Assembly: GCF_019649055.1 (NCBI RefSeq) | Contig: NW_026570227.1 | Location: 2,294,001-2,358,000, forward strand | Length of the DNA stretch: 64,000 bases | Direction: 5' to 3' | Source: Paramacrobiotus metropolitanus | Taxonomy: Eukaryota > Tardigrada > Eutardigrada > Parachela > Macrobiotidae | In this document: piece after piece, positions 1,183 through 60,870 of the stretch | How positions within the stretch are numbered: the first letter of the stretch is position 1 | How the letters are laid out: every line of letters begins with the position of its first letter | Translations under genes and position numbers: made by a program | The notes under the pieces: model-generated | Databases searched by the model: none | The model's input: the letters and a program-made list of their open reading frames with translations, nothing else | What the model was told of the DNA's origin: nothing

Positions 1183-8794
<7,612 letters not shown>

Positions 8795-16148: not shown

Positions 16149-16533
16149 ATACCGTCGTTTTGTAAAACTACCGCGATATATAATCTTGGAATTGCGTGGC
16201 TAAAACTGAAAAGCCGGGATGTTCCCGTGGTTTTAAAACAAAGCCCCAAAAATCGCGCGTTGTTTAGGATTATAACGGTTACTCATTGCAATGCAGCGCG
16301 CGACTACTTCGTCTACGAAATGAGCATCAGATGTGCAGCCGGATTTAAGGCATTTGCTGCCGGTAACCAGATTTTTCAGTCGGAGATCCATTAGCCTGTC
16401 GTGCTGTGTTAGAATAAGTTACTTTCACAGTAACATATTATTACTTATTAATGAATCGCAGCATGGTGCTTTTAAATGACTGCATTAGAGCTCCTACATC
16501 GAATCAATAGACCGTATTGGATGCTGTTTTATA
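16149..16533. other. spacer before the minisatellite
   Basis: Unremarkable sequence between the receptor remnant and the 81 bp array. Nothing recognised. Confidence 0.4.
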
Positions 16534-18250
16534 CAGACATCGGGGCCATCGCGGCGTCGCGGCAGTATGCCTGACTGCCGTATATGCCGTGTCGCGGTGC
16601 ATCGCGGCAATATACAGGCATCGCGGCCATCGCGGCGTCGCGGCAGTATGCCTGACTGCGGTATATGCCGTGTCGCGGTTCATCGCGGCTATATACAGGC
16701 ATCGCGGCCATCGCGGCGTCGCGGCAGTATGCCTGACTGCGGTATATGCCGTGTCGCGGTTCATCGCGGCAATATACAGGCATCGCGGCCATCGCGGCGT
16801 CGCGGCAGTATGCCTGACTGCGGTATATGCCGTGTCGCGGTTCATCGCGGCTATATACAGGCATCGCGGCCATCGCGGCGTCGCGGCAGTATGCCTGACT
16901 GCGGTATATGCCGTGTCGCGGTTCATCGCGGCTATATACAGGCATCGCGGCCATCGCGCCGTCGCGGCAGTATGCCTGACTGCGGTATATGCAGTGTCGC
17001 GGTGCATCGCGGCAATATACAGGCATCGCGGCCATCGCGGCGTCGCGGCAGTATGCCTGACTGCGGTATATGCCGTGTCGCGGTTCATCGCGGCTATATA
17101 CAGGCATCGCGGCCATCGCGGCGTCGCGGCAGTATGCCTGACTGCGGTATATGCAGTGTCGCGGTGCATCGCGGCAATATACAGGCATCGCGGCCATCGC
17201 GGCGTCGCGGCAGTATGCCTGACTGCGGTATATGCCGTGTCGCGGTGCATCGCGGCAATATACAGGCATCGCGGCCATCGCGGCGTCGCGGCAGTATGCC
17301 TGACTGCGGTATATGCCGTGTCGCGGTGCATCGCGGCAATATACAGGCATCGCGGCCATCGCGGCGTCGCGGCAGTATGCCTGACTGCGGTATATGCCGT
17401 GTCGCGGTGCATCGCGGCAATATACAGGCATCGCGGCCATCGCGGCGTCGCGGCAGTATGCCTGACTGCGGTATATGCAGTGTCGCGGTGCATCGCGGCA
17501 ATATACAGGCATCGCGGCCATCGCGGCGTCGCGGCAGTATGCCTGACTGCGGTATATCCCGTGTCGCGGTGCATCGCGGCAATATACAGGCATCGCGGCC
17601 ATCGCGGCGTCGCGGCAAGTATGCCTGGCCGCGGTATATGCAGTGTCGCGGTGCATCGCGGCAATATACAGGCATCGCGGCCATCGCGGCGTCGCGGCAG
17701 TATGCCTGACTGCGGTATATGCCGTGTCGCGGTGCATCGCGGCAATATACAGGCATCGCGGCCATCGCGGCGTCGCGGCAGTATGCCTGACTGCGGTATA
17801 TCCCGTGTCGCGGTGCATCGCGGCAATATACAGGCATCGCGGCCATCGCGGCGTCGCGGCAAGTATGCCTGGCCGCGGTATATGCAGTGTCGCGGTGCAT
17901 CGCGGCAATATACAGGCATCGCGGCCATCGCGGCGTCGCGGCAGTATGCCTGACTGCGGTATATGCCGTGTCGCGGTGCATCGCGGCAATATACAGGCAT
18001 CGCGGCCATCGCGGCGTCGCGGCAGTATGCCTGACTGCGGTATGTGCCGTGTCGCGATGCATCGCGGCAATATACAGGCATCGCGGCCATCGCGGCGTCG
18101 CGGCAGTATGCCTGACTGCGGTATATCCCGTGTCGCGGTGCATCGCGGCAATATACAGGCATCGCGGCCATCGCGGCGTCGCGGCAAGTATGCCTGGCCG
18201 CGGTATATGCAGTGTCGCGGCGCATCGCGGTTATATACAGGCATGGCGGC
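16534..18250. repeat. GC-rich minisatellite, about 21 copies of an 81 bp unit
   Basis: Anchored on TATGCCTG, copies recur every 81 bp from 16566 to 18189. Since 81 is 27 codons, several frames on both strands stay open for hundreds of codons; those are not genes. Three copies, with AAGTATGCCTGGCCGCGG at 17617, 17861 and 18186, carry one extra base and lie 244 and 325 bp apart, so the right half has a higher-order arrangement of three or four units. Units contain strong dyads, for example GTATATGCCG facing CGGCAATATAC. The GCGG-rich composition contrasts with the AT-rich surroundings. Confidence 0.97.
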
Positions 18251-29941: not shown

Positions 29942-32900
29942 TCAAACCGGCAGCATCCCAAACTCCGGTCCGTCATCCACACCATCCTCCTCCAAAACCG
30001 GGAGCGGCGCGCTCACCGTGACCTCTCCTAGCATCTCCGCGTCGGCATGGCTCGGCGACGGCGGCTGTATCACCCGGAAACATTCGTGGTTCAGCAGGCG
30101 GTCCAGAGCAACACGGGAGCCCAGCCGGCCCTCCGGATCCAGGCACTCGGTGAAGGAATCCGAAGGCACTAGGGTTGTGGCGTCGGTGCACACCGACACG
30201 GTCAGATCGGCGTGTACGGTGACCGTCTGGGTGGTCCAGTCCCCGGCCAGGGTCAGCTGCTGCCGGCTGAAGACGACGGATTTCGTGGTGCCCTTCAGGA
30301 GCTGCCAGCCGACATCGGGGGCGGTGTAGTTATGGCTGGATAGTTCATCCCTAGAAAAATTTCAAGTTGCCAATCTTAATGCAACATTTCACCTAGGACC
30401 TACATATTGCCCTCTCACTGCGCGAGGTTCAGCAGACGGAAACATCTTAACCAAAATAACCTTGACAGCAAAGAGTGTTTAAAGCAGAATGTTTTTTCGT
30501 TCGTACACCGTAACACCGGTTTAGTCACTTTTGCAGTCCGTACCATAGAAATATTTTAACAAGCACGATCATTCTAACATTAACGCAATAATACATAAGT
30601 ACGAGGCAAGCGACAACTCTTTCCCATCGCTTGAGTAAATTTTATCACTTTCCCTGCTGCATCTTACCCGTGTGCAGGCGCTCACGTGATACTTGATTTT
30701 AGCCGTCACGTCGGTTTGCAGCTATAGTTGATTGTGCAAACTGATAAAGAATATAGAGAAGAGCACGGCAGGCGAGATTTTATCGCCGGCTCAGTAAGCG
30801 GTGATTACAATGGATACGATATCAGTATCACGTGAGCGCCTGCACACGGGTAAGATGCAGCAGGGAAAGTGATAAAATTTACTAAAGCGATGGGAAAGAG
30901 TTGTCGCTTGCCTCGTACCAACAATCGAAAATTAGAAATAAGTAAAACCGTATTTTTAAATACGGTTTTACTTATGTTTTACGGGCATGCGCGATAACAC
31001 AAATCATTCACAATAAAAACTGTATTTGAAATGTAACGGCCAAAGCAAGGGTACAGAGCATAATAAAAAATTCGGAAGACTAACAAAAGATTGATCAAAA
31101 AATAAAGAATTACAATAAACTGATGATCAAACCACTCTTCAATTAAAAGACAACAAATTAAATTAAAAACGAAACACATTATTCGAAAATTCTTTTAAAA
31201 AAATGTATAACGCCGACCTGGTGCTGTATTGTACGTCAAGGGAGATCAGAGGAATGTTAAACATTTTCTTACCATAAATCATAGCGTGCCGGTTGGGGGA
31301 GACCGTCCGGATCATCGTCAGGAAGACAGTTCGTCGGCAGGATATCCGGCACTTTGCCGGTCCGCTTCTTCCGCTTAATAACCGGCTCTTGCGTCTCTGC
31401 GGCTTTCTTGTCGCTATCAGCCGCCACGGGGACTGGCGCCGACGGCTCTTCCTGTGATGACTGTTGCCGTTTCTTCCATCGGCTTTTTCTAGGCGAGTCA
31501 GGAACGATTTCATTGAACGAACACGTGAGAAATTCTTCCCGCTGGAAAGTAGCGGTAGCTGGCTTCTTTGTCGTGGCGGATTTCTTGGCACCCTTGGATG
31601 TTTTGGATTTCTTGGCACCCTTGGTACCAGACGTCTGCTGACCGCTTCCGCTCTGAAAAAAAAAAATAAAATCCTGATGTCAGAAGTCTTAAAACTGTTT
31701 GACTTAACAAATTTTTCAAAAGAGATTTTTTCTTGACTTCTCGACAGTTAAGCAAATTTCCGCTTTTAGGTTTAGGTTTTAGGTTTTAATCGCTTAGTGT
31801 CTACAGATACAAGGAATCACTCCTTATCGAGATCTATAGACAGGTCAACATAATCTATTACAAAAAAAAACAAATAAAACTTATATAAGAAAACAGTAAA
31901 ACATTTCATCAATTTCATCGATTTAACAAAAGTCAAGGTTATTCGACGGCAGATGGTCGTTAGCAGATGCGATCTCCTTCCAAGAGACGTCTTCCAATGC
32001 TCTTTGGAATGATTGCAGTGAGCAGTACGATGACGGATCTAAATTGAGGTCGTTCCAAAGTTTAGCAGTCCTCCATGAGAAAGAATTTTCGCTGGCTGGC
32101 ACTTCCGTTCCACAAAACTTGTTCTGGCAGCTTGAATCGGGAATGGGTGGCGCGACATCCGATCGGCATTCCGAGTGTTACCTGCAACAGTATCGACGGC
32201 AGTAACTGACTCATAACAAATAAAAAAATGGCTGCCAAAAGGTATCATGCCGAATACGAGTTTATATGCAACACACAAAGACGTTTTAATGCGACGCAGT
32301 TCAACACAATCCCAATTTATCTCGCGAAGCCTGCCATTGAAATTTGACCATTGAAATTTTTCAAACAGATTTCTTTCAGCTTTTCGACTACCCGAGTAGA
32401 CAAAAAAAATAATTTTCTTTCGGCAAAAACTTTCAGCTTTCTGCAAATTGACAAAATCGCCGAAAAATGTACTCCGCTAACTTAACTCTAAATTGCAGTC
32501 CAGTGTCATTTTGAACATAATGCTCATTTTGAAATCACTGCACAACTCAGCGAATGCTGTAGCAAAAAATTAATCGCCATCTGCTTAAATTTTTAAAATC
32601 ACTTTTGATGGTAAATACATCATTCCCTGCTCAGGAATATGATCACCGATGATTATGATCACCGTACTAGTAGTACTCACGTGATGACAGCGGTAAGCCC
32701 ATACACTACAAATCTTAACAAACGCCATGTTAGTACAAACGATGCGAAACGATTTTTTGAAAGCCAGCTCAATTCATCCACATTTTCACCGATTTAAACC
32801 CAATAACCTGTTAATTTATTGCAGTTAATTTTCCGGTTCAATATAATAACCTTGCGAAGAGTTTCAGTGTTCGTTTACTAGCTTTTATCGGTTGTTTCTC

Positions 32901-35900
32901 ACCTTCTCCCGGGCGGTCTTCTCCGCCATGAACTCCCCGGCCCGCAGCATCCGCACGGGATACGCGCCCTTCTTCAGCTTCCATCCCACCCCGCCCAGCT
33001 TCTCCACCATCTCTTCACTAAAATGCCGCGAACAAATCATATTCCGCTCATCCCACGCCCGCGCATTCTCCAGTCCAATGGCCTTCACCCATTTCTCATA
33101 CACCAACTTCTTCTCCGCACTGTCCTCATCCGCCGGTTTCTTCAGGCACCGGTGCAGGGTCACGCCCAGGCGTTTCTGGTCCACCATGCGCGCCGTACAT
33201 CCCCGAATTATACAGGTCTGCCGGTGTTTTTTCACCAAGTGCGGCTTGTTGGTGCGGATGCGCGGGACGCGGACGGAGGGGTCCGCTGGCGGCGCCGGGG
33301 GTTCCTGGTAACACGGGCGAAATTTGAGACCCTTCTCTGGCGTTTGCGAAATGAGTTTAAAGGAAATTAAATTTGAAAGTTTAATTATGTCATATAATAT
33401 TCACATTCATCTGACAGTATTAAAATTCAGATTTGCGCGCGCAAACGGATTTCACAACTACGTACACAATTCTTTTGGCTACAGAATACCATAAAGCAAT
33501 GCAAAAAAGTGTTTGGGAATGCGCTGTCGAGAGTGCGCGACAGAGAAAGTTCCCGTGGATGTACCGAATTTGGTGCTATGTATCAGGCCAAATCCCTTAA
33601 ATCTTGCGATTCATCCGCTTAAAATTGTTTTTCTTAAGAATTATCTGTAGTATATTCAAAAATTAATTCTACCATTCCAGTTATTTTGAACACGCGAAGC
33701 TCTATTTGAGTTTCAAATGATTATCTAAAATAATTATGTCATAATATTAACTCGGAAGCTTTCACTATCAGGCGACGGAATGATGAGAATAAATCATATT
33801 CTTCTATCATATTTTATTTTCTGAAATGTACTTCGTGAAATCATTAATTAAACCCTGGTTTTTTTCCGCTAAATTTGTTTTCTAATGATTCATTATTTTA
33901 TTAAAAATCAATTTCATCCATTTCCTGTCATTTGGACGACGCGAAAGCCAGATGTATTTTGGAATGAATTTAATTTATCGTTCCAAATGTGAAACTGTAA
34001 CTGTAACCTTACCTGGTATAAACCGGAGCCTTTGGGACGGCGCGGGTAGGTCTTCAGTGTCCAGTGGGGTTTGTCGCGGCGGGCGCGCTCATAGGCGTCA
34101 AACGCCGCTTGGATGGTGTGCAGAAGGGTGTCGAGATGCTGGAGATCGGCGGCGGCGGCCCGGTGGAAGAGCGGCCGGAAGGCCAGCGCCTGCAGCTGAC
34201 TGGCTTGCAGGAGTTTCTGGAGACGCTCGCGACACGGCCGGTAGTTGAGGGGTCTCTCGTCTACCTGAATATTTCGCCAATCAGCTCGCAATTTGTGCAG
34301 AATTAGATCACATAAAATATGTTTAATAACCAATCTCAGAACTTACGAGGTAATTATGATTTTCACAATATACAAGTATTCCGCAAAAATATTACCACAA
34401 AAGCGCCTGCAAAACATTTTTTTGCATTATATTTTCTAAAGATTCTCCCGTTATATCCGACATAAATATTCACCAAAAAACTGCCCAACGTAACTCCCGT
34501 TCCATATTATCACGGGTCGTACCATAATACCATCGTACCAGACATAAACTAATCAGAAATAAATCCCTAAAAAATCATGGAATTATTTTTGTAAGTTATT
34601 CGAGTTTGAGTTTTTATAATCATATTTATTTCTAAACAATATTTTTGTAAGTTATGGAATTATTTTTGTAAGTTATTCGAGTTTAAGTTTTTATAATCAT
34701 ATTTATTTCTAGACAATATCCTAGTAACGATTATTATTTTTAAAGAATCAGAACTGTTAAACTGTAAAGTAGCAATTTTCAAACAATATAATTAAAATGC
34801 AAAAATATTTTGGTGCTCCCGTTGGCAGTTAGAACTCACTTTAGCATCGTTATATGCCTGGAGAACCTTTGTCCATGCCGCGCAGTAATCAATTTGTTCG
34901 GTGTGCTGAAAGGGATTGATTTCCGTGATAAATTCCACCAGCTTCAGTTCCGACTGGAAACTGTGGTAAGGACCGGCGTCACCGTCTTCTCCGCGTTCCA
35001 CGGCCCTGTTTAGTAATAATCAAACTTTTTTGAACATTGAATATTGTACATCAAGTTACCAACCTATATTCAATAACATATTCATCTGGGATATTTATCT
35101 ATCTTCACTGATTTTCTTCATAGGATATTTTTCTATTTATTTTTATTTAATTTGTTTGTACTCGTAATAATTTATTTATCAACGCTCACTATGTTATACA
35201 GCGCTTTCTTCGTTTATTAAGTTAACATTTTTTAGGTGATCACATCTTTATGTAGTTATCAGTTACTTGTATTATGTTGTACGAGTATGTGTTTATATAG
35301 TATAAGATGCTAAATCCGGTTGTTACCAATCGCGAGACAAGGTAACAAAAACGCCAACGCACCGCCGTCGTTTAACCGGCAGTTCCCGGTTGACTTCCGG
35401 CGCCAAGTGTTCGGCATGGAAACGCCGCAGATGGTTGAGCAGTGTGGATGTCGTGTTGGCCAGAAACAGTTTAGAGCAGTAATTACATACGTTCCCCGCG
35501 GGATACGCTGGGCGGAAATGCAGCCATGCCGGAGATTTCGATTTAATTTCGCTCTTTTCTGCAAACAAACTTCAGTGCACATTCAATGCAGTCAACATTC
35601 CTGCACGTTTCTTGGGAACTGGAACTTCCTTAAAAATCTTTCGAAATTACAGTACATGAGGTTGTCGTATTTATTTTATACAATTATTTTAAAAGTCGAG
35701 ATACACACTTCAGTAAAATTACGCCAAAACTATTTAAAATAAAACCTAAAAATAAATTTAATTAAAAAAAGTTTAAACGACAAATAAGAAAATAAATAAA
35801 TAAAAAGAAGAATAAATAACAAAATAAAATAAATAAAAATAATTTTTAAAAAAATGAATTAGAAAAAAATAAATTAAAGCTATAATTATGAAAAAATTCA

Positions 35901-38814
35901 GCCTATGCTTTACGAACACAACAACACCCATTAACGCTATAACAGCATCACTATTCGCTATTATTTCGTTGCCGGTAGATTTTCGCAGATTGTTGGAGCA
36001 ATAAACCATTCAAAACATTTCCGTGCAAATACCGTTCTCGGCATTTCCTCCATCGCACACGGCAGCTCCACGACGATACAGTGATAAAATTTTCCACTGC
36101 CCGTTGGCGTATTTCTGCATACGCTGATCTATTAACGCTGTATTCCCTTCGATCGGTAATTTTTTCACTGCAAAATACCCCAGAACATAGCAATCCAAAA
36201 TTAAATTATGACAAAAATTATCACGCATTTATCAGCGACAAAATATTATCACAAAAAGCGCAAATCCCATGTAAAAATATTTCAAAGTTAACACAGCATA
36301 CACCGAACTCGAATCTCACGCTGAAAAAAAAACTAAAAAAAGCCTAAAAAATACTTCAGAATTAATACCTACTGGCTACTGCTTGCACAAATTAGAAAAC
36401 AAAATAAAAAGGTAAGTAAAAACAACTGTCTGATTAATTCAGAGAAAAATAACGATTGTACAAATAAAATTAAACTCCCACAGGAAATAAAAAAAATGAT
36501 CTAAAAAACACCGTAGAAAATAAATAACAAAAAGATAAAACCAATAAAAATACGCTAAATAAATTTTATGGAAAACTGCATCAACACAAATTTACGGAAA
36601 GTATGGATAACCGGCACTTACACGAGTTGAGGCTGTTCTCCGGGAGGTTGCGTGTCGGCATGGCCTGCGCGCGCACCGGGAGGACGGCGGTGATATCCAC
36701 ATCCTCCGCGGAAAAATGCTCCGTACAGATGTACAGCTCGTGGGTTTTACCCACGTACGGCAGCTGCAGCTGCTGGAAGGCCGCCTTGCGGGGCGGCATG
36801 CGCTCGTACAGGCGGATGAAGCGGACGAGGCGGGGGTCCGTGTTGTCGGCGGTGTGGGTGCACAGCGGCACCACGCACGTCTCACACGCCACGATCACCG
36901 TCACGCCGCTGCTGTCGGGCATCCCCACAGACTCCTCGGTCTCTGCACCAGCCGGACCGGGGCTCGGATCGGTGTCTGCAAGCATAAAGGTAAAAGAAAT
37001 ATCATGAGAATCTAATATGGTGCTGATTATCCGAAATTAAAAGATTAAATACACAGAAACTACAGTATTTAACAATTACTTACTTATTTAGTTATTACTT
37101 TTTTTAATGTATTATGTGTGATCCCTGAAAATAAAACGCTTAAACTACACCCCGAAACGTGAAATTTAAACGCTTATTTATTTAAAGTAAAGTCATTTCC
37201 CTTTAACTTGTTATGTGTAATCGAACGCTTTATTCGTATTTAAATTATTTTACATATCATATGAAGTATAACGTCTTATTTAAATTCTTGTTTTAATTCG
37301 ATTAACTTTGATTCTGATTTTATTGTTATGCCAATCAGAAACAATTAACGTTTTGTGCAAGGAACAACGATGCCGCAGACGCTAACAGAAAAGGAAAACC
37401 AGTTAAATTTTTCCATTGATACAATTTTTCGCGCAAATTCCCTGATTTGCTTACAATTCCCAGGTTCCTACCTGGCACAGTGGCCATCAGGCGCTGGTAG
37501 TCGGCATCAGCTTGGTTGCGAAAGTATGTGTCAATTAATCGAAAATGAGCCATGAAGCTGTAATCCGTTACTTTGGATACCACGGCTCGACAGTCCTTCT
37601 GCAAACATGGAGAAAGATGAATTCTGTTCATGTTTTCACTGAAGTGTTAATTTTTTTATTTCTCTAATTCTTTTCCATATAAACAGAAATGTCACAATGG
37701 AGTCTGCACTCAGTGTACTGTACACAGAAATTTCAAGAGATTGTTAGAATACATATCTAGACTGATTATATGTTTATGAATATTGTTCAGAACAGCACAT
37801 TTGTTATGAAACTGGAAACTTTTTACTTGTTAAATAACTTAAATTTAAATCATTTCCACTAAAATTCCTTCGACTCCTTCTACAGTTATTATTAGTATAC
37901 TGTATTCACGTTTCATTATAACCAGCATTTTACTTATTATTTTCCTTTTATTAACTTTTTATTTTTTAATTTATGTACGATGTGTGGCATTTTTGGCAAA
38001 ATTAAATATCTACGTACAACAATTATTCTTGTACGAAAAATCTTCATAAGAAATCTGTGAAGAAAATTAATTCCAGGAGAAAACCAAGAATAAAAGAACC
38101 AAACATGTGGCATTTTCGACAAAATTAATTAAGGTATCGCCGCATCTGAAAAAATTATTTTTAGACGAAACATTCTCATAAGAAATCTGAAGAAAATCAG
38201 TGGCAGAAGATGAGAAGAAACTAACATAAAAGCCAGTCTTACAAATGTGATTGTAATAAGAAAATTACCCACGAAATTAAGTGAAGACATTAATCAGAAT
38301 TCAGCGTTACCCGATATCGTTTAAGAAGCTTCTGCCATTTGGCTCGCAGCTGCAGCGGGGTCTTGGGGACCAGAGCGGGGAAGCGCTGACGAAATCGCTC
38401 GCTGATCTGCTGCCACAGATGATCCTGCTTGCCTGGCTTCCTGTCATCAACCGGGAGGACGTCGAACAGGAACAGCGGATTCATAGCGATGCGCGTCTCC
38501 ACCAGCCATCTGCAGAGAGTACAGCACAGCTATCACGAGTGCGTGATCGTCTTACTCATTGAGCATCATTTCAACGATGCCAACAGCAGCACCCGATTCG
38601 GTGCTACTGTTGGCATGGCTGAAATGTGCCGCAGAATCCTACTCCCCAGAAACCCCAGGGCCTAAGAGGCTAAGTCTCTTAAGAGATCGGAAATTCGAAC
38701 AGCAAAGCAGCAAACGGCAAACACTCACTGGGTTTCTTCAGCCTGTGCGTCACGGCTCGGTCGGGAACACGATACAGGCGCCTTGACGGCGCTCTCACCG
38801 TCAGGATCATCCAT
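29942..38814 (-). CDS. multi-domain DNA-binding protein MADF-THAP-BED-Myb-THAP, 11 exons (901 residues)
   Basis: Exons, in transcript order: 38814-38729, 38509-38311, 37598-37472, 36975-36622, 36167-36033, 35558-35363, 35005-34840, 34264-34013, 33304-32903, 31652-31273, 30350-29942. They total 2706 nt and every junction keeps phase with GT/AG sites. Domains: MADF-like, residues 30-120 (WLVETRIAMN...LRAKWQKLLKRYR). THAP 1, 165-250, with Cys171, Cys176, Cys221, His224 and AMPT at 242. BED finger, 308-352, with Cys325, Cys328, His343, His348. Myb/SANT-like, 380-460 (INPF...WTKVLQAYN...RPCRERLQKLL). THAP 2, 530-625, with Cys536, Cys541, Cys596, His599. Then a Lys-rich, nuclear-signal-like stretch (640-760) and a unique C-terminus. 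No transposase catalytic domain is visible, so a transcription or chromatin factor is likely. A MITE lies just upstream. Confidence 0.85.
30599..30918. mobile_element. foldback MITE with 95 bp terminal inverted repeats
   Basis: Arms 30599-30693 and 30824-30918 are reverse complements with one mismatch seen (CGCTTGAG against CGCTTTAG). Ends read GTACGAGGCAAGCGACAACT. The 130 bp centre has no frame. It sits in the last intron of the 11-exon gene. A target duplication could not be fixed. Confidence 0.92.
31761..32446 (-). mobile_element. LINE 3' fragment in intron 9 of the 11-exon gene
   Basis: The minus strand from 32446 encodes the end of a non-LTR reverse transcriptase protein (RRIKTSLCVAYKLVFGMIPF, later FVERKCQPAKIL). 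After a frameshift near 32080 it continues FSWRTAKLWNDLNLDPSSYC to a stop at 31925-31923.  The WxxAKLWNxL block is typical of the C-terminus of such elements. The 3' flank ends in a short CCTAAA-like run (31764-31795). It is truncated at 5' and dead. Confidence 0.75.
33437..33600 (-). mobile_element. dispersed repeat, single copy
   Basis: Member of the family at 15012-15398: GGCTACAGAATACCATAAAG and GTACCGAATTTGGTGC...GTATCAGGCC in minus orientation. It lies in intron 8 of the 11-exon gene. Confidence 0.65.
34577..34730. repeat. tandem duplication of a 77 bp unit
   Basis: ATGGAATTATTTTTGTAAGT...AATCATATTTATTTCT occurs at 34577 and again at 34654 with two or three differences. It is intronic to the 11-exon gene. 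Confidence 0.9.
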
Positions 38815-39000
38815 TCTCCAAAAGAAAGAACATGTATAAAAAACTGTACACCACAGTTATTTCAGTTCGAGAGGATAGTAAAGACATTCGCAATCTGATG
38901 AGACTCAATGACTCCGGAGAGATCAAAATTCGAATACGAGTATGTGTACCATGTAGTTCTATGTATGTAGTATGTACAATACGTATTAGATCGCGTAAAG

Positions 39001-39225
39001 GGGGGATCCATAAATTACGTACGCAGCGAACCAGGGAGGGACGGGTCCAAAAAACGTGACAAGCTGTGACGACCCCCGACGAACTGGGGAGGGTGGTCAT
39101 CTCCATGTATTGCGATTGAGCGAACCAGGGGGGAGGGGTCAAGCAAACGTGACGGACCGCTACGAAGGGGGAGGGAGGGGTGAAAAAACCGTGGTTTTCT
39201 GCGTACGTAATTTATGGATGCTCCC
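39001..39225. mobile_element. MITE with ATCCATAAATTACGTACGCA terminal repeats
   Basis: Both ends carry about 26 bp inverted repeats (GGGGG/GGGAG then ATCCATAAATTACGTACGCA). Two subterminal direct repeats of GCGAACCAGGG...AACGTGAC lie inside. No frame. It begins 187 bp upstream of the start codon of the 11-exon gene, within its probable promoter. Elements with similar ATCCATAAATTACGT ends are known from other invertebrates (established, no name claimed). Confidence 0.85.
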
Positions 39226-39329
39226 AAACGGTACGGGTAAACTGTAAAAAATAGAATCAGATACTGCCCTCCTGGGCGGTCGGCATCTCCGCATAAAATA
39301 GTAAGTAGTATTTAAAGTACGAGTTATAA

Positions 39330-39587
39330 CGTCATAACTCGTACTTATGAGTTATGACGTATAGCCGTCCAAAACGTCCGAACACGAGTTACAAATTCAG
39401 TAGAAACTTCCGGATACGAATTCTCACTGATCCCTTCTGTTTACGATTGCAGACTATACGTCATAACTCGTACTTATGAGTTATGACGTATAGCCGTCCA
39501 AAACGTCCGAACACGAGTTACAAATTCAGTAGAAACTTCCGGATACGAATTCTCACTGATCCCTTCTGTTTACGATTGCAGACTTTG
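39330..39587. repeat. tandem duplication of a 129 bp palindrome-bearing unit
   Basis: Two near-identical 129 bp copies start at about 39330 and 39459. Each contains the inverted pair ATAACTC/GAGTTAT with ACGTCA flanks (TACGTCATAACTC facing GAGTTATGACGTA). Identity looks complete, so the duplication is recent. CRE-like TGACGT cores occur four times. Confidence 0.92.
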
Positions 39588-43330: not shown

Positions 43331-45506
43331 ATGCAAAAAATGCTTCCCATAGAGCACCGTGCGAACAGCGTAGGAGTTATTGGGGATGATGGCTTCGTGC
43401 GCTGCGGCCTTGTGGTGGACGTGGCGGACAACGGACTGCTCATCGATTTTCGCTGTTCTCAGCAAAAATTTCAGCTGATTCCGTTCGATAAAGTCCTCAC
43501 TTCATGGCCAATACCGACACGTGATGTGGCCAAAAAGACTTCCGACCTTTATGTGAAGGTTCCCGTAGAGCTTCTGGTACCAGAGACAGCGAGTGGTCCA
43601 TGGATCTGGGTGCCCGCTGAAATGAATGTTGTGGGGCACGATATACCCCACCTATGGTACGAGGCAGCTGTTGTCCAGTGGCGGGATAAAGACAACGGCA
43701 CTCTGTGCACGGACATAGTTCCCCTTGAACGCATCCGTCGGACCCCAACCTTGCTACACTCGGCAGTGATGGAGATGGGTCCTGACCTGGCTTACCGCTG
43801 CACCAAACCAGGGGAATTAGTCAAGGCCAGTATGCCGCTAAATGAAAAGGTTGCATTGTTGTCTGCGGAAAAACTTGAAAATTTGATGAAGCGGTTAAGT
43901 GAATATCTTCGGATTACGCTGTGGTCGCGAGTTGCCATAGTGGACCTTGCGGACGGCCGATTGGATTACATATTTAAGTCTGGTGCTTTTCCATATGATT
44001 CTCAAAATAAAATGATCCTGGTAAGGATAATCGGCTAAGCACAAAAACATCGGGAAGCTGCTGTGCTGTTCTGCTGACTTCCCCGTTCCTTTTTCTGTTT
44101 GCGGCAGTTTTTTCACCTGGTCCGCTTTGCAGGCGCATGTGGGCTATGCCAACACCTACTTGACGGAGCTCTTTCTGTCGAAAAGTTCCGCAGAAAGCTG
44201 CGGAGAAGTACCGTTGGAGCAGATGTCGCTTCCGGCGGAAGTGTTGCTTCAGGTCTTTTCCCAGCTGGACACTGTCACGCAGACAGTGCTGAGCAGGGTT
44301 TGCGCATCTTGGAACTGGATGATGGAGTCGCCCACGCTGGCCTCCACTGTTGTCATTAAGGATTCAGCGGATTTCAAGAGCGACTGGGCTTGTTACGTGT
44401 ATGCGCAATTCTTTTATCCGGCCGTCATCTATAAACGCCTTCGTACTGGCACGAAACACATCGTGGTGGCCAGGGAACGTTCAGAGCTGAGCACCAAGAA
44501 CGTGTTTAATGTGCTGGACATGGTCCGTTACGTTGCTGACCATCAGTCTGCCATCCGCTTGCGAACGCTGCATCTGAGCGGCAGGAATCTCCGATTACGG
44601 ACAAACTGCGCTAAGAACACATTGCGCTGGGACCAATGCACCCAGCATGATGTCAATGTCGAACGTAACCCGGAATGCTTGAAAGGTTTTGTGGAATTGT
44701 ACGGCGCTCTGCCGTGTCATGTCTTACGTCTGACAAACTGCACAATCACCCTGCACTGCTCTATTTCCGGAGTGTCTACGTGGGAGGAGTTAGGCCCTAC
44801 TTTATCAATGGAAGTTTCGACGGCGAACATCGGACTCGGTGCCGATTTCGGTTGTACACTGTGGAATGCGTTGGAGGCGGCGCTGTCGGTGCCGCGTGCG
44901 GAGGAATTGGTTGAGCTGTCGCAGTGGTTGGCACAACTGAGTGACTCGCAAATGGAAGACAAAATAGTCGTTTGCAAGGTACGTAGAAGAAACGGCGGAA
45001 TTGCGTAGGATTTGGAAAGATATCATTGATGTACATAAGGTAGTAACATGGATTTAAAGTGTGTAAATATGTAGGTAGTGCTGCATCACTCTTTTTCATG
45101 TGTGACATAAGCCATTTGAGAAAACATTTTATAATTTTTATTCATAAAAAAGATAAGTGTCAATAGATGCACTGAAATGCGTAATCAAGATAAGGAACAC
45201 TCATTTTCCAGTCAAAAATCAGTTAGCAGGTGAAATCGATAGTTTGCAACTTTGCAGTAGAAGTAAATCCTGTGGCATAAGTGGAATGAAATGAAAGTCA
45301 ATGCTTCATATTCAGGTTATTCAAGTTATTAATTTTTGCAGACTTTGTGTGCGGTGCAGTCGTGTGATCCACGTCTATCTTCGCATTATCGCGGGAAGAA
45401 GTGGTGCGTGGAGGGCTTGCAACAACTGCAGTTGGAGAAGCTGTCGAGGCTAGCCCTGCATTTTCTCCTGCAAATCCAATCGAAAAGTGATGAGACGGGA
45501 GGTTAA
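43331..45506 (+). CDS. Tudor-like/F-box protein, copy A, 3 exons (566 residues)
   Basis: Exons 43331-44020, 44133-44978 and 45342-45506, all phase 0. Exon 1 encodes an orphan N-terminal domain (VGVIGDDGFVRCGLVVDVAD...FDKVLTSWP, then WIWVPAEM and VVQWRDKDNGTLCTDIVPLE) that looks like paired small beta barrels reading charged ligands (inference). Exon 2 opens with an F-box near residues 262-305 (SLPAEVLLQVFSQLDTVTQ, then ASWNWMMESPTL), which would bind Skp1 in an SCF ubiquitin ligase. A Leu- and Cys-containing region follows (RLRTLHLSGRNL, FVELYGALPCHVLRLTNCT), probably the substrate side. Exon 3 ends with KLSRLALHFLLQIQSKSDET. Copy C at 49544 has the same structure, which supports the model. 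Confidence 0.85.
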
Positions 45507-45707
45507 GTGGGGTGCCGGACTTTCTCAACCTAGTGCAATGCAATTATAATGCTTTTTATCCTATGCATTCGGAGGATCCTATGCAACGGCGACATTTAAC
45601 TTCTTTCTTTTCTTTCGTAGGCAATGTAAACCGCTGTTTCGATTTATATGTATTTTTGTGTAGGATCATAGGATGTGCAGCCAATAAATTAGCGGTGTGA
45701 GTTTTTA

Positions 45708-47890
45708 TGCGCAGCCTAGTTGCCATAGTAGACCTCGTGGACGATCAGTTGGATTACATTTACAAGACCGATGCCTATCTTTATGATACTGAAAATAAAA
45801 TTCTGGTAAACATAATCGTCTTTCTTTGTTAAAAACGTCGGAAGACTGCTAAAAAGTTCAACTGAACTCCTTGCTCCTTCATTTGTTTGCGATACGTGTA
45901 CCACAAACACAATAACACCATACCATCCGTGTTTTATCTGGTCCGCTTTACAGTCCTTAGTAAACTGTGCCAACAACTTATTAACACAAGCCTGGCTGTC
46001 AAAGAACCCCGTAGAATACTGTGGAGATGGACCTTCGGACCGGCTATTGCTCCCGACGGAAGTGCTTCTGCAAATCTTTGCCCAGCTGGAAACTGTCACG
46101 CAGACAGCGTTGAGCGCGGTTTCCGCTTCCTGGAAAGAGATGATGGAGTCGCCAACGCTAGTTTCCACTATTGTCATTAAAAATTCAGCCGATTTTAAAA
46201 GCAAGGTTTTTTACACTGCCAGTCACCATTTTTTTCTCTCGGCCACCATTTACAAACGCCTCCGTCCTGGCACGAAACGCGTTGTAGTAGACAGCGAACG
46301 TTCGCAACTGGACATCAAGAACGTGTTGAAAGGATTGGACATGATACGCTACGTTGCTGATCACCAGTATGCCACTGGACTCCGAACGTTGCATCTGAGC
46401 GCCATGAAGCTCTGTCTGGGGATGAGCTGCGTCAAAAACATCCTACGCTGGGACGAATGCACGCATCACCAGCCCAACCGTACGGATTTCCAACGTAACC
46501 CGGAGTGCCTGCACTGTTTTGTGGAATTGTACAGCGCTCTGCCGTGTGATGCTATCCGTCTAACAAACTGCACGGTTGCTTTGACGTGCTCTATTCCCGG
46601 AAGGTCAAAGTGGGAGGGATCAGGCCCTACCGTGTCAATGGAAATTTCGACGGCGCACATTAGACTGGGTACCGGTTTCGGTTGCACACTGTGGAATGCT
46701 TTGGAGGCGGCGCTGTCGGTGTCGCGTGCGGAGGAACTCGTTGAGTTGTCGCAGTGGTTGGCACACGTGAATGACTCGGAGATGGATACCAAAATAGTCG
46801 TATGCAAGATATGTACTCATCGTGACGGAATTTCGTAAGTAAGGTCCTGCCTAACATCTGTACTTTGTAAATGTAAGATAGGGCTAACTTTTTGTGACTC
46901 CATTAAATAACTATAAATAAATGAGAAGAGATGTACGGCAATGCCCAGATGAAGGCAAGAGACACTGATATGTACTCCTGGTGACAGAGGAAATCGCTTG
47001 TTTAGCCATTACCATGGGGCAGGGGTTCCGTGGGTATCTGCGATAAGCATGGTCGAATGAAAAGAATAACAAAGCTTGTTATTCGGCCTATTTAACTCTT
47101 TGTAAACTTTGTGTGCGACGCAGTCGTGTGATCCGCGACCATCTTCGCATTATCGCGGGAAGAAGTGGTGCGTGGATGGCCTGCAACATCTGCAGTTGGA
47201 GAAATTTTCAGTCTGTAAACCTTTAATAAGTATCACAATGCTAGTACAAAACTGAGTACCAAAGCAGAATATAATTTATAATAAAAACACTTCTTCGATG
47301 CTATCCTGTTCGGGGATTGTACCCATCACCCTTATCGCGTTTCCCCGTTGCATTTGAATAGATAGCCGCTGCCTAAAAAACTCTTTTGCGCGTTTTTGGC
47401 CGGTAGCAGTTGCAATTCCGTTTCTTATCTTCTGGACGAGCGTTTTAGTTCCATTTCCCCAGGGTCCGTAGATTTCAAATGCTGCTGCCATGAAATTGTA
47501 CCTTGGTTGCAGCCAGCCGTGTTTTGTCAGCTTTCCTCGCTCCGCGTGCTCGGCCGCAGCCCCGACGTTCACCAGGGTCCGATCAATATACGAAGCCGCC
47601 AGTGTGTCTACGCAAGTCACATCGATAGCCAGTGGCTTTCCGCGCTCCCAGGGTACGAGCGTGATCACGTCCGGCCTTTTGCGATCTTTCACAGAGAGAC
47701 CTTTTGGTTCCATCCTGGCTGGGAAACCTGCGGTTTTCAGGCCGCGGGTGAACTCTCCGCTGAGGCCATCATGTCTTGGCAATCTGCCGGCTGACCGTTT
47801 ACAACGGAGCCCGTGCCGCCCCAGTTGGAGAAATTGCCGCGCCTAAGCCTGCACTTTCTTCTGCAAGTCCGATCTAAAACTGAAAAGACG
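45708..47890 (+). pseudogene. Tudor-like/F-box gene, copy B, decayed
   Basis: Only the last 30 codons of exon 1 remain (LVAIVDLVDDQLDYIYK). Exon 2 is intact as a frame (45955-46809) with the F-box (LLPTEVLLQIFAQLETVTQ). The exon 2 donor, gt in copies A and C, reads at (TGCAAG|atatgt, 46810), and the exon 3 acceptor cag reads taa (47110). Exon 3 is interrupted at 47212 by a retrotransposon fragment and resumes at 47823. There is no counterpart of the promoter block. Exon 2 could still be expressed as a single-exon product, but the gene as such is dead. Confidence 0.85.
47212..47822 (-). mobile_element. retrotransposon 3' fragment with endonuclease-like domain
   Basis: Inserted into exon 3 of copy B and flanked by CAGTTGGAGAAATT on both sides (47198-47211 and about 47823-47836), a 14 bp target duplication. 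On the minus strand 47782-47276 encodes 168 residues: RPDVITLVPWERGKPLAIDV, CVDTLAASYIDRT, HGWLQPRYNFMAAAFEIYGP, QRLSIQMQRGNAIRVMGTIP. I know this pattern from the C-terminal region of invertebrate reverse-transcriptase elements, where RPD..L..W..G..L..DVT suggests a PD-(D/E)XK-type nuclease (inference). The frame is open but lacks the reverse transcriptase, so it is a 5'-truncated copy. Confidence 0.8.
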
Positions 47891-49543: not shown

Positions 49544-51453
49544 ATGGCTTTTCTAAAGCACCGCATGAACAGTGTAGGGGTGCTGGGGGCTAACGGCCTC
49601 ATGTACTGTGGCCGTGTGGTGGGCGCTGCAAACAACGGACTTCTGCTAGAGTTTCACGGCTTCCAGCGAGAACGCTTTCTATTCCCGTTCGACAAGGTCT
49701 TCACATCATGGCCAACACAGGAAAGTCATGTGGCCACAAATTCGGACGAGCTATACAGGAAGATGCCAATAGAGCTTCTGGTACCGGAGACAAAAAGTGG
49801 TCCATGGATCTGGGTGCCCGCTGAAATGACTATTGTGGATTTTGATACTATTTTCTGCCAGTGGTTCGAGGCGGTTATTGTTCATTGGCGAAACGAAGCC
49901 AGCGGTGCTCTCTGCACGGACATTGTTCTTGCTGAGCGCATCCGCAGGGGTCTGACATACGAGTGCACCAAACCAGGAGAATTCGCCAAAGGCAGCGTGC
50001 CACTGAATGAAGAAGTTCGGTCGATGTCTCCGGAGAAACTGGAAGACCTGATGAAGCGGTTGAACGAATATTTTCGATCTAAGTTAAATTCGGGTGCTGT
50101 TATCGTGGACCTCGTGGACGGCCGATTGGATTACATTTATAGGCCTGATCTCTGTAATTCTTATGCCGATAAGGAGATTCTGGTAAGGGTAATAAGCGGA
50201 AGACTGCTAACCTGTTTCTCCTGACTTCCGTGTTCCTTTTATATGTTTGCGGCGCGTGTTTCATCTGGTCCGCTTTGCAGGCGCGCGTACACTTTGAGAG
50301 CACCCACTTAACACAGCGCTGGCTGACGAGCAACCTGGTGGAAAACTCTGGAAATGTGTCACCGGACCCGCTGTTGCTTCCGGCAGAAGTGTTGCTGCAG
50401 GTCTTCGCCCATCTGGACACTGTCACGCAGACAGCACTGGGCGCGGTCTGTGCTTCTTGGAATTGGATGATGGAGTCACCAACGCTAGCTTCCACTATTG
50501 CCATTAAAGCTTCAAGAGATTTCCAGACCAGCTGGGAGTATTCCAAAATCAACCATTTCTTCTACGTGGCCGCTATCTATAAACGCCTGCGCCCATGCAC
50601 GCAACGTGTTGTAGTCGCTAACAAACATTCGGAGATGGGCATCCGCGACGCGTGGAGAGTGCTGGACATGATCCGCTACGTTGCTGACCATGAGTCTGCC
50701 ATCCGACTGCGAACCTTGCATCTGAGCCGCCGGAATTTCCATTGGGGGATCCACTGTGCTAATAACTTTCTGCGCTGGGAGGAATGCTGGCAGCATCAGC
50801 ATGACCTAACCAAGGCTCAGCTTTATCCAAATTGCCTTCGCTGCTTCGTGGAATTATACAGCACTCTGCCGTGTGATGCCATCCGTCTGACAAACTGCAC
50901 GGTTACCTTGATCTGCTCTATTTTCGAATTGTCAGGGCGCAAGGACTTAAGACCTACCGTGTCAGTAGAAATTTTGACGGCGCACGTTAAATTGGGTGAC
51001 GATTTTGAGTGCACGCTGTGGAATGCGCTGGAGACGGCGCTGTCGATGCCGCGTGCGGAGGAACTCGTTGAGCTATCGCAGTGGTTGGCACAATTGGATG
51101 ACTCGCACACGGATGCCAAAATAGCCGTGTGCAAGGTATGCAATCAAAGTGGCGGGAACTCGTAAGGTTTGAAGAGAAGTCTTTGCTGTGGTAGTATGGG
51201 TGTTTGCGATATACACTGAGCTGCTGGCCGAATGAAAAGAATGACAAAGCTCGTTATTCAGTGACTTAAGCCACTCAATTCTTTGCAGACTTTGTGTGCG
51301 GCGCAATCGTCTGATCCGCGTCCATCGTCGCATTATCGGGGGAAGAAATGGTGCGTGGATGGCTTGCAACATCTGCAGTTGGAGAAGCTGTCGCGATTAG
51401 CCCTTCACTTTCTCCTGCAAGTCCAGTCAGAAACTGATAAGACGGGCGATTAA
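49544..51453 (+). CDS. Tudor-like/F-box protein, copy C, 3 exons (552 residues)
   Basis: Exons 49544-50182, 50281-51135 and 51289-51453, phase 0 throughout, intact. The same architecture as copy A: N-terminal orphan domain (VGVLGANGLMYCGRVVGAAN, FDKVFTSWP, WIWVPAEM, HWRNEASGALCTDIV), F-box near residues 244-288 (LLPAEVLLQVFAHLDTVTQ), the RLRTLHLSRRNF and FVELYSTLPCDAIRLTNCT blocks, and a short last exon ending LLQVQSETDKTGD. Its expected role is a substrate adaptor of an SCF ubiquitin ligase, with the substrate unknown. The start moved 12 bases downstream relative to copy A because of a frame change in the leader. Confidence 0.87.
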
Positions 51454-57929: not shown

Positions 57930-60870
57930 TTATTTTATTGTGCTTTTCTCAGTCGAAGAATTACCCCATGAAACAATATTACGTATGTGAAACAGCTTGC
58001 CTTGTGTGGCTGCTGTCATTCGCGTCGGAAAAAATGAATTCGCGATGTGACCCGGTAATTTTCCTTGCTTAAGTTGATTTCCACAAAGGTCCCGAAGATT
58101 ATCCAGAAGTGTCGTGCTGGTTATGCGTTCAGAGCTTCTGGTCGACAAACAACGTCGCACCATGCTCGCCAGATATTTAGGGATCGGCCTTGACACCGGA
58201 GGGACATATCCCTTAGTGAGTTTAAGCAGGGACGCATCGGATGAAAAATGAGTTTGCTGGATTTTATCCATCTTGAACGCCTCTCCCTCCAGCTGCGCTA
58301 TCCTGTAAAACCATCTGGTCTGGATTTCGTAACAGCAGTCAATCAGGTCGTGTAATACACCGCCCAGACTTCATATATCCGTGAGGAACCCCACCGGTTC
58401 GTGCTCCAGTCCGAAGTGGGACATTGCCATTTCCGGGGACATAATATTATAAGAAGCGGTGCCCTTCATCTTGAAATCGGTCTGGTTGGCACGTTCATCA
58501 ACGTGCACGGCTCCATCCAGATCTCCGATGAGAATTTTGTTGCCGTTGATTACCGGTTTCAGAAAAATGTTGCTGGGCTTCACGTCGCCGTGAATGAAAC
58601 GATTTCGATCAAGAAATTCAAGACCGCTGGCTATTTGCGCAGCATAATTTATCATGACATGATTGACATCCACTTTGAGACGGTTTTTGCTTGGCTTGCA
58701 GTGATCAATAAAGGATGCGAGGTCCCGCCTAATAGTTTGCGGTTTATTAGGAAAGAGACACTAGGCGTCTAAACTTTTAAGATGCATTGACTGTGAAATA
58801 TCTCAAGCACTTTTTAATGTGAGCTCCGTTAGATGTTACCTCGTCCGGTCGTACGATTTCGGAAATCTTGTGCCCGTTCAACCGGACCAATCGGACCGGC
58901 TTATCGAAATTTTCTAAACAGCATCTTTCAGCATTCCTTAGTAGGGTAAACCAGTTTTTGCGCCCCACGTGTCACCCTGACTTTGTGACTCGTACATGCG
59001 AATACTTAACGTGAATACACTTGATTAAGAATTGCCAGTACTTTGTTTGTGATTGAAGCGGAATGCTTTCCCGAATCGTTCCTTCGCAATATTCTGTCAT
59101 AAAGAGCAAATCCACGCCTCTGATCAGTTTCCGGAAAGCGAGTTGATGGTAGGCTACTAAATTCGCATGCCTCACATTCAGCAAATTTTTCCACTGTTCT
59201 TGAAGCCGGCTCCAAGAGTTTTAACGTTTCAGCCGTTTAACCTGGACGTTGGATAACAGAATTTCTTTAACGGCCACTACATTTCCCCCGGTATAACTAC
59301 CACGTTCCGTGATCTTCGTCCTATAAACAGTACCAAATCTACCTTGTCCGATGAAATCCTGTGGGAAGGTATAATCATACTTGCATATACAGCCAACGAC
59401 TTCCATCAAAGGCTGACCTTTCTCCCGGTTAGTGCTTGCATTATCGCTATAAAGGCTTCGCTTATCGCTGTATTCCCAAGTGCTTCCATACGTCTGTTCT
59501 TCAATTTCGACCAATTTATTGAGTTGGTCTCCAGCAGTTATGCGCTGCTCGCAATCCGTGGATAAACACCGATTAATAATACCAGCAAAATCTTTTGGGA
59601 TGCTTTCCGAGGTATGCAGTACGTAATCATCCGCTAAAGCTTGCAAAACCTCGAACGGTCAACGCTGCGTAATGATTAACGGATTTTTAGTTATCCTGTG
59701 GCGGAATTCCCGGCGGAATTCCGCTGGTTTTCGCTGCCGGCTGGCTACGAAACAGCAGCGTGCCAGATACTGAATCATGCAACCCAAACTCCAGATATCG
59801 GTTGATCGCTCTACACACTGGCGCGGATTTATCAAAACCTTCTGGAGTTTTTCCGGTGACATGAAAAGACTTTCCGTGCGTGATGGAGGAATGTCTGTGA
59901 CACCGGTTCGAAATTCCATCGATTCTAGCGTGCCGGTATTGAAATGCAAAATAAAATTTTGGTTACCAATTGGCCGGTTCACCAAAACGTGGCTGGGATT
60001 CAGTTTGCCGCGGATAATGTCCTGTTCATGCCAATAAGCCCCATTGCCCAACTGTTCGCCACAGGCATATTAACATTTAGTGGCCGTTTCCACCCCATGC
60101 TATCAATGATACTATGCAGATCTCTACCTAAAAAAGTTTAATTTAACTTTAACACTAAACTTATTAAATTACAATTAACCTACAGAGCTACTCTGTATGC
60201 TAAGTGCCCTTAAAGAATTGCCTGTATGTATAACTAAGTATAATTGTGTTTTTAACGTAAGTGCTATGTATAATTAAGCGCTTGTTACAAAAAGTTTCAA
60301 GAAGATCGGAAAATAGCCTGCTCTTTAATACAAGCTCATACAGTTTTAATTTTTACGCCAATATATGCAAATCATTTGGCTGTAGAAAATGTAGAAAGTA
60401 ATTCATAACATGCCCAAATTTGAGAATTTCAGAGGATGCATACGAAGCTGGTACCATTATGCAAGAATCTCTTCCCCCAATTCGAGGATCTATTCCAATA
60501 ATCAGTCTTTCTGACCTGCACAGTAATCCATAAGAAGCTCCGTGTATATCTCTTGCTTTTCATGGAGCCGGTTAAAGCAAACTTTATGCACAAAAATCAC
60601 GTCCTCATGGCGCAATTGCAGCAGCTTCTCATAATCCTTGGTAATGTCGCCCATCTTCAAATTACTCAGCATGTTCTTTATCAGGACATCGTTTGGAAAC
60701 AATGTTGTGATCTTCTTAACAGCAACTACGATCCGTAACTGTAGCATAAATACTGTACTGAAAGGTCGCCGTGTTGAACCTAGCTTGGTCCATAATTATG
60801 CGGCAGTGCGCTCCCAAATCCAGCATTACGTGGATTGTATCGCTGACGCAACGGCCCGATTTGCTAACGT
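57930..60870 (-). pseudogene. tandem protein kinase gene, decayed
   Basis: Two kinase domains in a row on the minus strand. Domain 1: KLGSTRRPFSTVFML with VVAVKKI (60810-60700), LLMDYCAG, then a degenerate catalytic loop (DIIRGKLNPSHVLVN), SPEKL and ERSTDIWSLGCMIQYLA (60051-59659), ending FAGIINRCLSTDCEQRIT. Domain 2: FIGQGRFGTVYRTKI and VVAVKEI (59380-59250), VRHANLVAYHQL, MTEYCEGT, then FIHGDVKPSNIFL (58600), DLD for DFG and MSPEM for APE. It continues as DI*SLGGVLHDLIDCC, where TGA at 58373-58371 replaces the expected TGG, and ends LASMVRRCLSTRSSERIT. Frame breaks occur between blocks; some may be introns. Domain 1 is a pseudokinase by motif loss. Confidence 0.75.
60357..60402 (-). mobile_element. 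dispersed repeat, short fragment
   Basis: CGCCAATATATGCAAATCAT then TTGGCTGTAGAA matches the minus-oriented arm at 15239 (CAACGTATGCAAATCATTGG). Too short to place further. Confidence 0.45.

Follow-up and report, generated by a model that had tools for sequence, protein, structure and literature searches.

A predicted multi-module DNA-binding protein with Myb/SANT-like, THAP and BED domains in the tardigrade Paramacrobiotus metropolitanus

Does a chain of DNA-binding modules of the kinds typical of transposons, strung together at one tardigrade locus, represent a single working host gene, and what could such a protein do? The locus lies in the window analysed here (64,000 nucleotides, contig C7:2294001-2358000), part of a 169.8 Mb genome in 533 contigs that was also searched. 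LOC129582162 forms a chain of 11 exons on the minus strand (window 38814..29942), in which all ten introns are GT-AG and phase is preserved at every junction. The earlier note had counted eleven joins in phase; the phase stands, and the count is corrected to ten joins between 11 exons. Rebuilding the minus-strand chain confirmed a coding length of 2706 nt including the stop codon, or 901 amino acids, with no frameshift and no internal stop. Introns range from 219-1250 nt and have a G+C content of 27-38% in nine of ten cases (intron 1, 51%), the coding sequence having 59%. The gene model comprises the following features, in window coordinates.

38729..38814, minus strand: exon 1, with the start codon (exon chain; also in NCBI isoform X2)
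38311..38509, minus strand: exon 2, bulk of the N-terminal Myb/SANT-like (Myb_DNA-bind_4 / MADF-like) domain (exon chain and Pfam)
37472..37598, minus strand: exon 3, where the Myb/SANT-like region ends (exon chain; isoform X2)
36622..36975, minus strand: exon 4 (exon chain)
~36653-36877, minus strand: THAP domain 1 (C171, C176, C221, H224), in exon 4 (Pfam, 24.7 bits)
36033..36167, minus strand: exon 5, without recognised domain (exon chain; isoform X2; Pfam)
35363..35558, minus strand: exon 6 (exon chain)
35416-35535, minus strand: BED zinc finger, in exon 6 (Pfam)
34840..35005, minus strand: exon 7, opening portion of the central segment claimed as Myb-like (exon chain; without Pfam match)
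34013..34264, minus strand: exon 8, remainder of the central segment (exon chain; without Pfam match)
32903..33304, minus strand: exon 9 (exon chain)
32954-33214, minus strand: THAP domain 2, in exon 9 (Pfam, 41.4 bits)
31273..31652, minus strand: exon 10, lysine-rich linker, net charge +9 (exon chain and codon bias; absent from isoform X2)
29942..30350, minus strand: exon 11, acidic C-terminus with net charge -14 and the stop codon (exon chain and codon bias; absent from isoform X2)

Pfam profiles were compared with the whole 901-aa protein and with seven segments singly, and matches at E ≤ 10 were listed. THAP scored 58.5 bits on the whole protein, both copies together (cut-off 23.9), and each copy exceeded this cut-off when scanned alone (24.7 bits for THAP1 and 41.4 bits for THAP2). 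BED scored 26.7 bits on the whole protein and 33.5 bits alone (cut-off 20.6). The claim that two THAP domains flank a BED module in one gene model therefore survives, with profiles recovering both domain types, and the zinc ligands proposed for the three fingers (C171/C176/C221/H224, C325/C328/H343/H348 and C536/C541/C596/H599) are all at those residues (12/12). At the N-terminus, which had been named a MADF module, a Myb/SANT-like domain is indeed present, but the MADF label is borderline (19.0 bits on the whole protein and 22.0 bits alone; cut-off 22) and Myb_DNA-bind_4 fits better (30.0 and 33.5 bits; cut-off 27). A PDB sequence search returned GT-1 trihelix matches only, weak ones (E 0.12 and 0.3), under residues 57-96. 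The proposed central Myb-like module (residues ~379-441) was not recovered, exons 7-8 scanned alone matching 0 Pfam families at E ≤ 10, and we do not treat this segment as a proven Myb domain. Likewise, no Pfam family matched exon 5 or exons 10-11 when segments were scanned. The absence of a catalytic domain was borne out, Pfam finding no transposase, reverse transcriptase or other enzyme in the whole protein or the seven segments. BED/ZBED-like proteins have a hAT transposase / RNase H body and a C-terminal dimerisation domain as family traits; neither was found at E ≤ 10 in the whole protein or the seven segments. No repressor domain was found by Pfam. Single-sequence AlphaFold2 prediction of the 689-aa isoform gave a mean pLDDT of 33.7, with 0 residues at or above 70.

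Both THAP domains of LOC129582162 are divergent, as judged by alignment with 18 THAPs of the same genome (17 distinct, two rows being one place, C17_1322351). THAP1 and THAP2 both retain the C2CH ligands, the C..HF motif and the late proline, and both have lost the conserved FP pair; the conserved W is present in THAP2 and is replaced by F in THAP1. The THAP1 exon (residues 138-255) has a net charge of -7, an argument against contact of that module with DNA; the THAP2 exon (residues 506-639) has one of +13.

The gene is already annotated by NCBI, with no function assigned there. Its annotated form is LOC129582162 isoform X2 (689 aa, uncharacterized protein, P. metropolitanus), which is identical to the predicted 901-aa protein over residues 1-639, encoded by exons 1-9 (100% identity, 71% of the query). 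After exon 9, isoform X2 departs to two different 3' exons and does not include exons 10-11. These exons, and a miniature inverted-repeat element found in intron 10, are placed as follows.

32681..32713, approximate ends, minus strand: isoform X2, first alternative 3' exon (isoform X2 mapping)
32065..32182, approximate ends, minus strand: isoform X2, last coding exon, within a retroelement-derived repeat (isoform X2)
30599..30918, no strand assigned: miniature inverted-repeat (MITE-like) element in intron 10, 320 bp, with 95-nt arms 99% complementary

The repeat under the last exon of isoform X2 has 26 matches in the genome, three of them reported as 100% identical, counting the window's own. 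The copy on contig C77 extends into a reverse-transcriptase frame of 456 aa (RVT_1, 97.4 bits), and in the stretch common to isoform X2 and this copy, the frame of X2 differs from that of the reverse transcriptase. In the window, a retroelement fragment occupies ~31930-32330 in intron 9 and is seemingly 5'-truncated, its start having been judged by eye. The end of isoform X2 stems from this fragment, either as a real exonisation or as an artefact of misplaced reads. Whether isoform X2 proves that a short protein exists is doubtful: with 100% identical matches to the repeat that holds its last exon, transcript reads could have been misplaced there. Of 80 candidate places for the MITE-like element of intron 10, 40 were scored; one copy elsewhere, on contig C60, is reported as 100% identical across 322 bases.

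Further repeats and coding frames were observed around the gene. A short way upstream of exon 1 are an inverted-repeat element at 39000-39225, whose 37-nt arms are 86% complementary, and, at 39329-39584, a tandem duplication of 129 bp that is perfect. Two tandem arrays lie farther off in the window: a perfect (TAT)n array of 139 units (2775-3190) and an 81-bp repeat of 21 copies with 96% matches, in which several frames are open on both strands (16530-18250). A frame at 8261-8791 matches KDZ (Kyakuja-Dileera-Zisupton) transposase weakly, its 18.1 bits falling below the cut-off of 26.6. Two frames at 44031-46835 are F-box-like (31.0 and 30.9 bits), and a third, at 50173-51165, is similar to them by eye. 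Protein kinase matches were found on the minus strand at 58374-58760 (38.5 bits, above cut-off) and 59662-60069 (19.4 bits, below cut-off).

The tail encoded by exons 10-11 is predicted from splice sites and codon bias. These exons are open in phase with good splice sites. Exons 1-9 served to train a codon table, a measure that is weak on short exons; by it the predicted frame scores 0.87 bits per codon versus 0.19 and 0.30 in the other frames, a score reached by 0 of 2000 composition shuffles. On this codon bias, a chance frame was rejected. Among exons 1-9 scored singly, the own frame ranks top of the three in eight of nine: another frame scores higher in exon 1, and in exon 5 the own frame scores -0.09, yet is the best of the three.

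Relatives were sought among 5.8 billion proteins clustered at 90% identity, in a length-limited search that required shared exact 5-residue words. Only the gene itself was recovered in this word-based search, both with the whole protein at E ≤ 0.001 (one of 8000 scored candidates) and with residues 301-640 at E ≤ 10 (one of 7048). Such a search may miss distant orthologues; other tardigrade proteomes exist at NCBI, according to the available part of PMC12941274, and no match showed any of them in the searched database. The earlier suggestion of a newly assembled gene fits the absence of relatives, but since exact words were needed, it may also be an old, fast-evolving gene.

Family lists from the same genome suggest that LOC129582162 is apparently single-copy. 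Among the matches listed, BED occurs 14 times on 14 contigs and Myb_DNA-bind_4 13 times on six, and the only contigs found in both lists are C7, which carries LOC129582162, and C17. No second locus bringing BED, Myb_DNA-bind_4 and THAP together was found among these matches in the genome. Apart from that of LOC129582162, a single listed BED match, C17:1178059, has a THAP from the list within 50 kb, at a distance of ~24 kb, the lists having been compared by reading. The THAP list holds at least 150 matches (150 of 180 candidates scored) and omits weak THAPs, among them THAP1 of LOC129582162, so that THAP co-occurrence is a lower bound. When the protein was compared by tblastn with C17:1.13-1.33 Mb, 14 rows were returned at E ≤ 1, the best at E 0.001 in the THAP2 region; THAP regions account for 13 of the 14, and the remaining row falls in the central segment (E 0.70). 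Membership of the multi-THAP family on C17 was rejected, the similarity over this interval being weak only. LOC129582162 is, on the evidence of its predicted product, an orphan multi-module DNA-binding protein in which known parts are newly arranged.

We propose, with a probability of roughly 60%, that LOC129582162 is a host gene for a non-enzymatic nuclear DNA-binding protein that would read a composite site, act in a tail-dependent manner and have arisen in the tardigrade lineage by the joining of modules. Zinc-finger and helical modules, several of them in a single chain, could together recognise an extended composite site in DNA; the BED finger and THAP2, which keeps its W, would be the chief contacts and the degenerate THAP1 a weaker or protein-binding module. 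In the full-length form, the lysine-rich linker and acidic tail of exons 10-11 would recruit other factors and alter transcription; an isoform stopping after exon 9 would bind DNA without that tail. The joined modules would be of kinds also carried by transposons, and the tardigrade lineage is the most likely place of origin. The predicted product is probably a lineage-specific gene regulator. If orthologues were found and targets mapped, it would become a worked example of a regulator assembled from several transposon-associated DNA-binding families.

Two neighbouring genes, one encoding Myb-THAP-BED and the other the central segment with THAP2, could have been wrongly fused into one model, and introns of 219 to 1250 nt would accommodate this; yet the annotated model, isoform X2, runs from exon 1 to exon 9 and spans both halves, and none of the ten junctions breaks phase, which makes such a fusion quite improbable. 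We hold it similarly improbable that the locus encodes a transposon protein in decay, or consists of exonised transposon debris, instead of being a working host gene. The module types are typical of transposons and the alternative last exon of X2 lies within a retroelement-derived repeat, but 2706 nt without internal stop or frameshift and spread over ten introns, a best-scoring own frame in 8/9 of exons 1-9 and in joined exons 10-11, and the absence of a catalytic domain by Pfam all argue against debris, as does the finding that, among the matches listed, BED and Myb_DNA-bind_4 share no other contig but C17.

In a role in transposon silencing, also raised by the earlier note, transposase-like modules would recognise transposon ends and the protein would recruit repressive chromatin there. 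The available part of PMC10027918 describes a tie of THAP, BED (ZBED) and MADF with DNA transposons, and a retroelement and a MITE have inserted in the introns of LOC129582162 itself. However, no link connects binding by the protein with any repeat, and Pfam gave no repressor domain. Transposon insertions in introns are, moreover, ordinary. Silencing is possible, the evidence favouring it no more than ordinary gene regulation, and as a specific explanation of the locus we rate it unlikely. Neither silencing nor the earlier note's idea of construction from several transposon families drew direct evidence from this analysis. A host DNA-binding protein that reads a composite site remains our preferred reading.

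We note that the same genome holds a second group of multi-module genes, outside the window. A region of ~200 kb at C17:1200000-1410000 is a cluster of multi-THAP genes, many with a PR/SET domain downstream. C17:1.20-1.41 Mb holds 83 of the 150 scored THAP matches (of 180 candidates), and one frame within this interval has 8 THAP domains; its relatives, among 7998 scored candidates, were P. metropolitanus proteins in four of four cases. PR/SET (PF21549) has 85 matches in the genome, 74 of them on four contigs (50 on C17, 10 on C73, 9 on C12 and 5 on C104); human PRDM genes, for comparison, number under twenty. In C17:1.20-1.41 Mb, 15 of 17 PR/SET domains are preceded on their own strand, at a distance of up to 8 kb, by THAP matches, the nearest lying within ~1.3 kb in 14 of these 15. 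Four NCBI proteins were scanned: P0002 (partial) and P0005 combine THAPs, PR/SET and C2H2 on one chain, and the remaining two have THAPs with C2H2 and THAPs only. A MADF match was also observed at C17:887432, 1.6 kb upstream of a PR/SET match. We know of no described architecture combining THAP, PR/SET and C2H2, and the C17 cluster looks more unusual than LOC129582162 and the stronger lead. At least 150 THAP and 85 PR/SET matches suggest that this stress-tolerant animal has many such regulators. A tentative and rather doubtful extension is that the tardigrade lineage repeatedly built regulators by shuffling transposon-associated modules, with LOC129582162 and the C17 cluster as two products of one process, possibly a genome defence that evolves against transposons in the manner of mammalian KRAB zinc fingers.

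The Myb/SANT-THAP-BED-THAP architecture was not described in the titles and abstract openings of the papers listed for THAP, BED, MADF, HIM-17, tardigrade THAP and PRDM, in keeping with the earlier note, whose author did not know this module order. Within the genome itself, the C17 multi-THAP / PR-SET / C2H2 genes resemble LOC129582162 in carrying several THAPs per protein and differ in having PR/SET (two of four scanned proteins) and C2H2 (three of four). Transposon-derived ZBED and THAP factors across Metazoa form lineage-specific families with THAP or BED, as here; in the available part of that survey, which mentions no tardigrade, the Myb/SANT-THAP-BED-THAP order is not described and MADF genes are left out (PMC10027918). 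The LIN-15B-domain proteins of Caenorhabditis (LIN-15B, GON-14 and IVPH-3), as described in the available part of PMC12570147, are taxonomically restricted, LIN-15B and two others have THAP or THAP-like domains, and their predicted structures resemble ZBED proteins. LOC129582162 is similar in its apparent taxonomic restriction and its THAP domains; compared by description, it differs in that the LIN-15B domain has an RNase H fold, of which Pfam found none here (PMC12570147). The closest known system in way of working would be HIM-17 of Caenorhabditis, a THAP transcription factor called transposase-related that regulates promoters co-opted from MITEs (PMC9757741). The available part of that source mentions THAP domains only, with no BED or Myb/SANT module, and the two proteins are likened by description: HIM-17 has six THAP domains and, as in LOC129582162, several are carried on one chain (PMC9757741).
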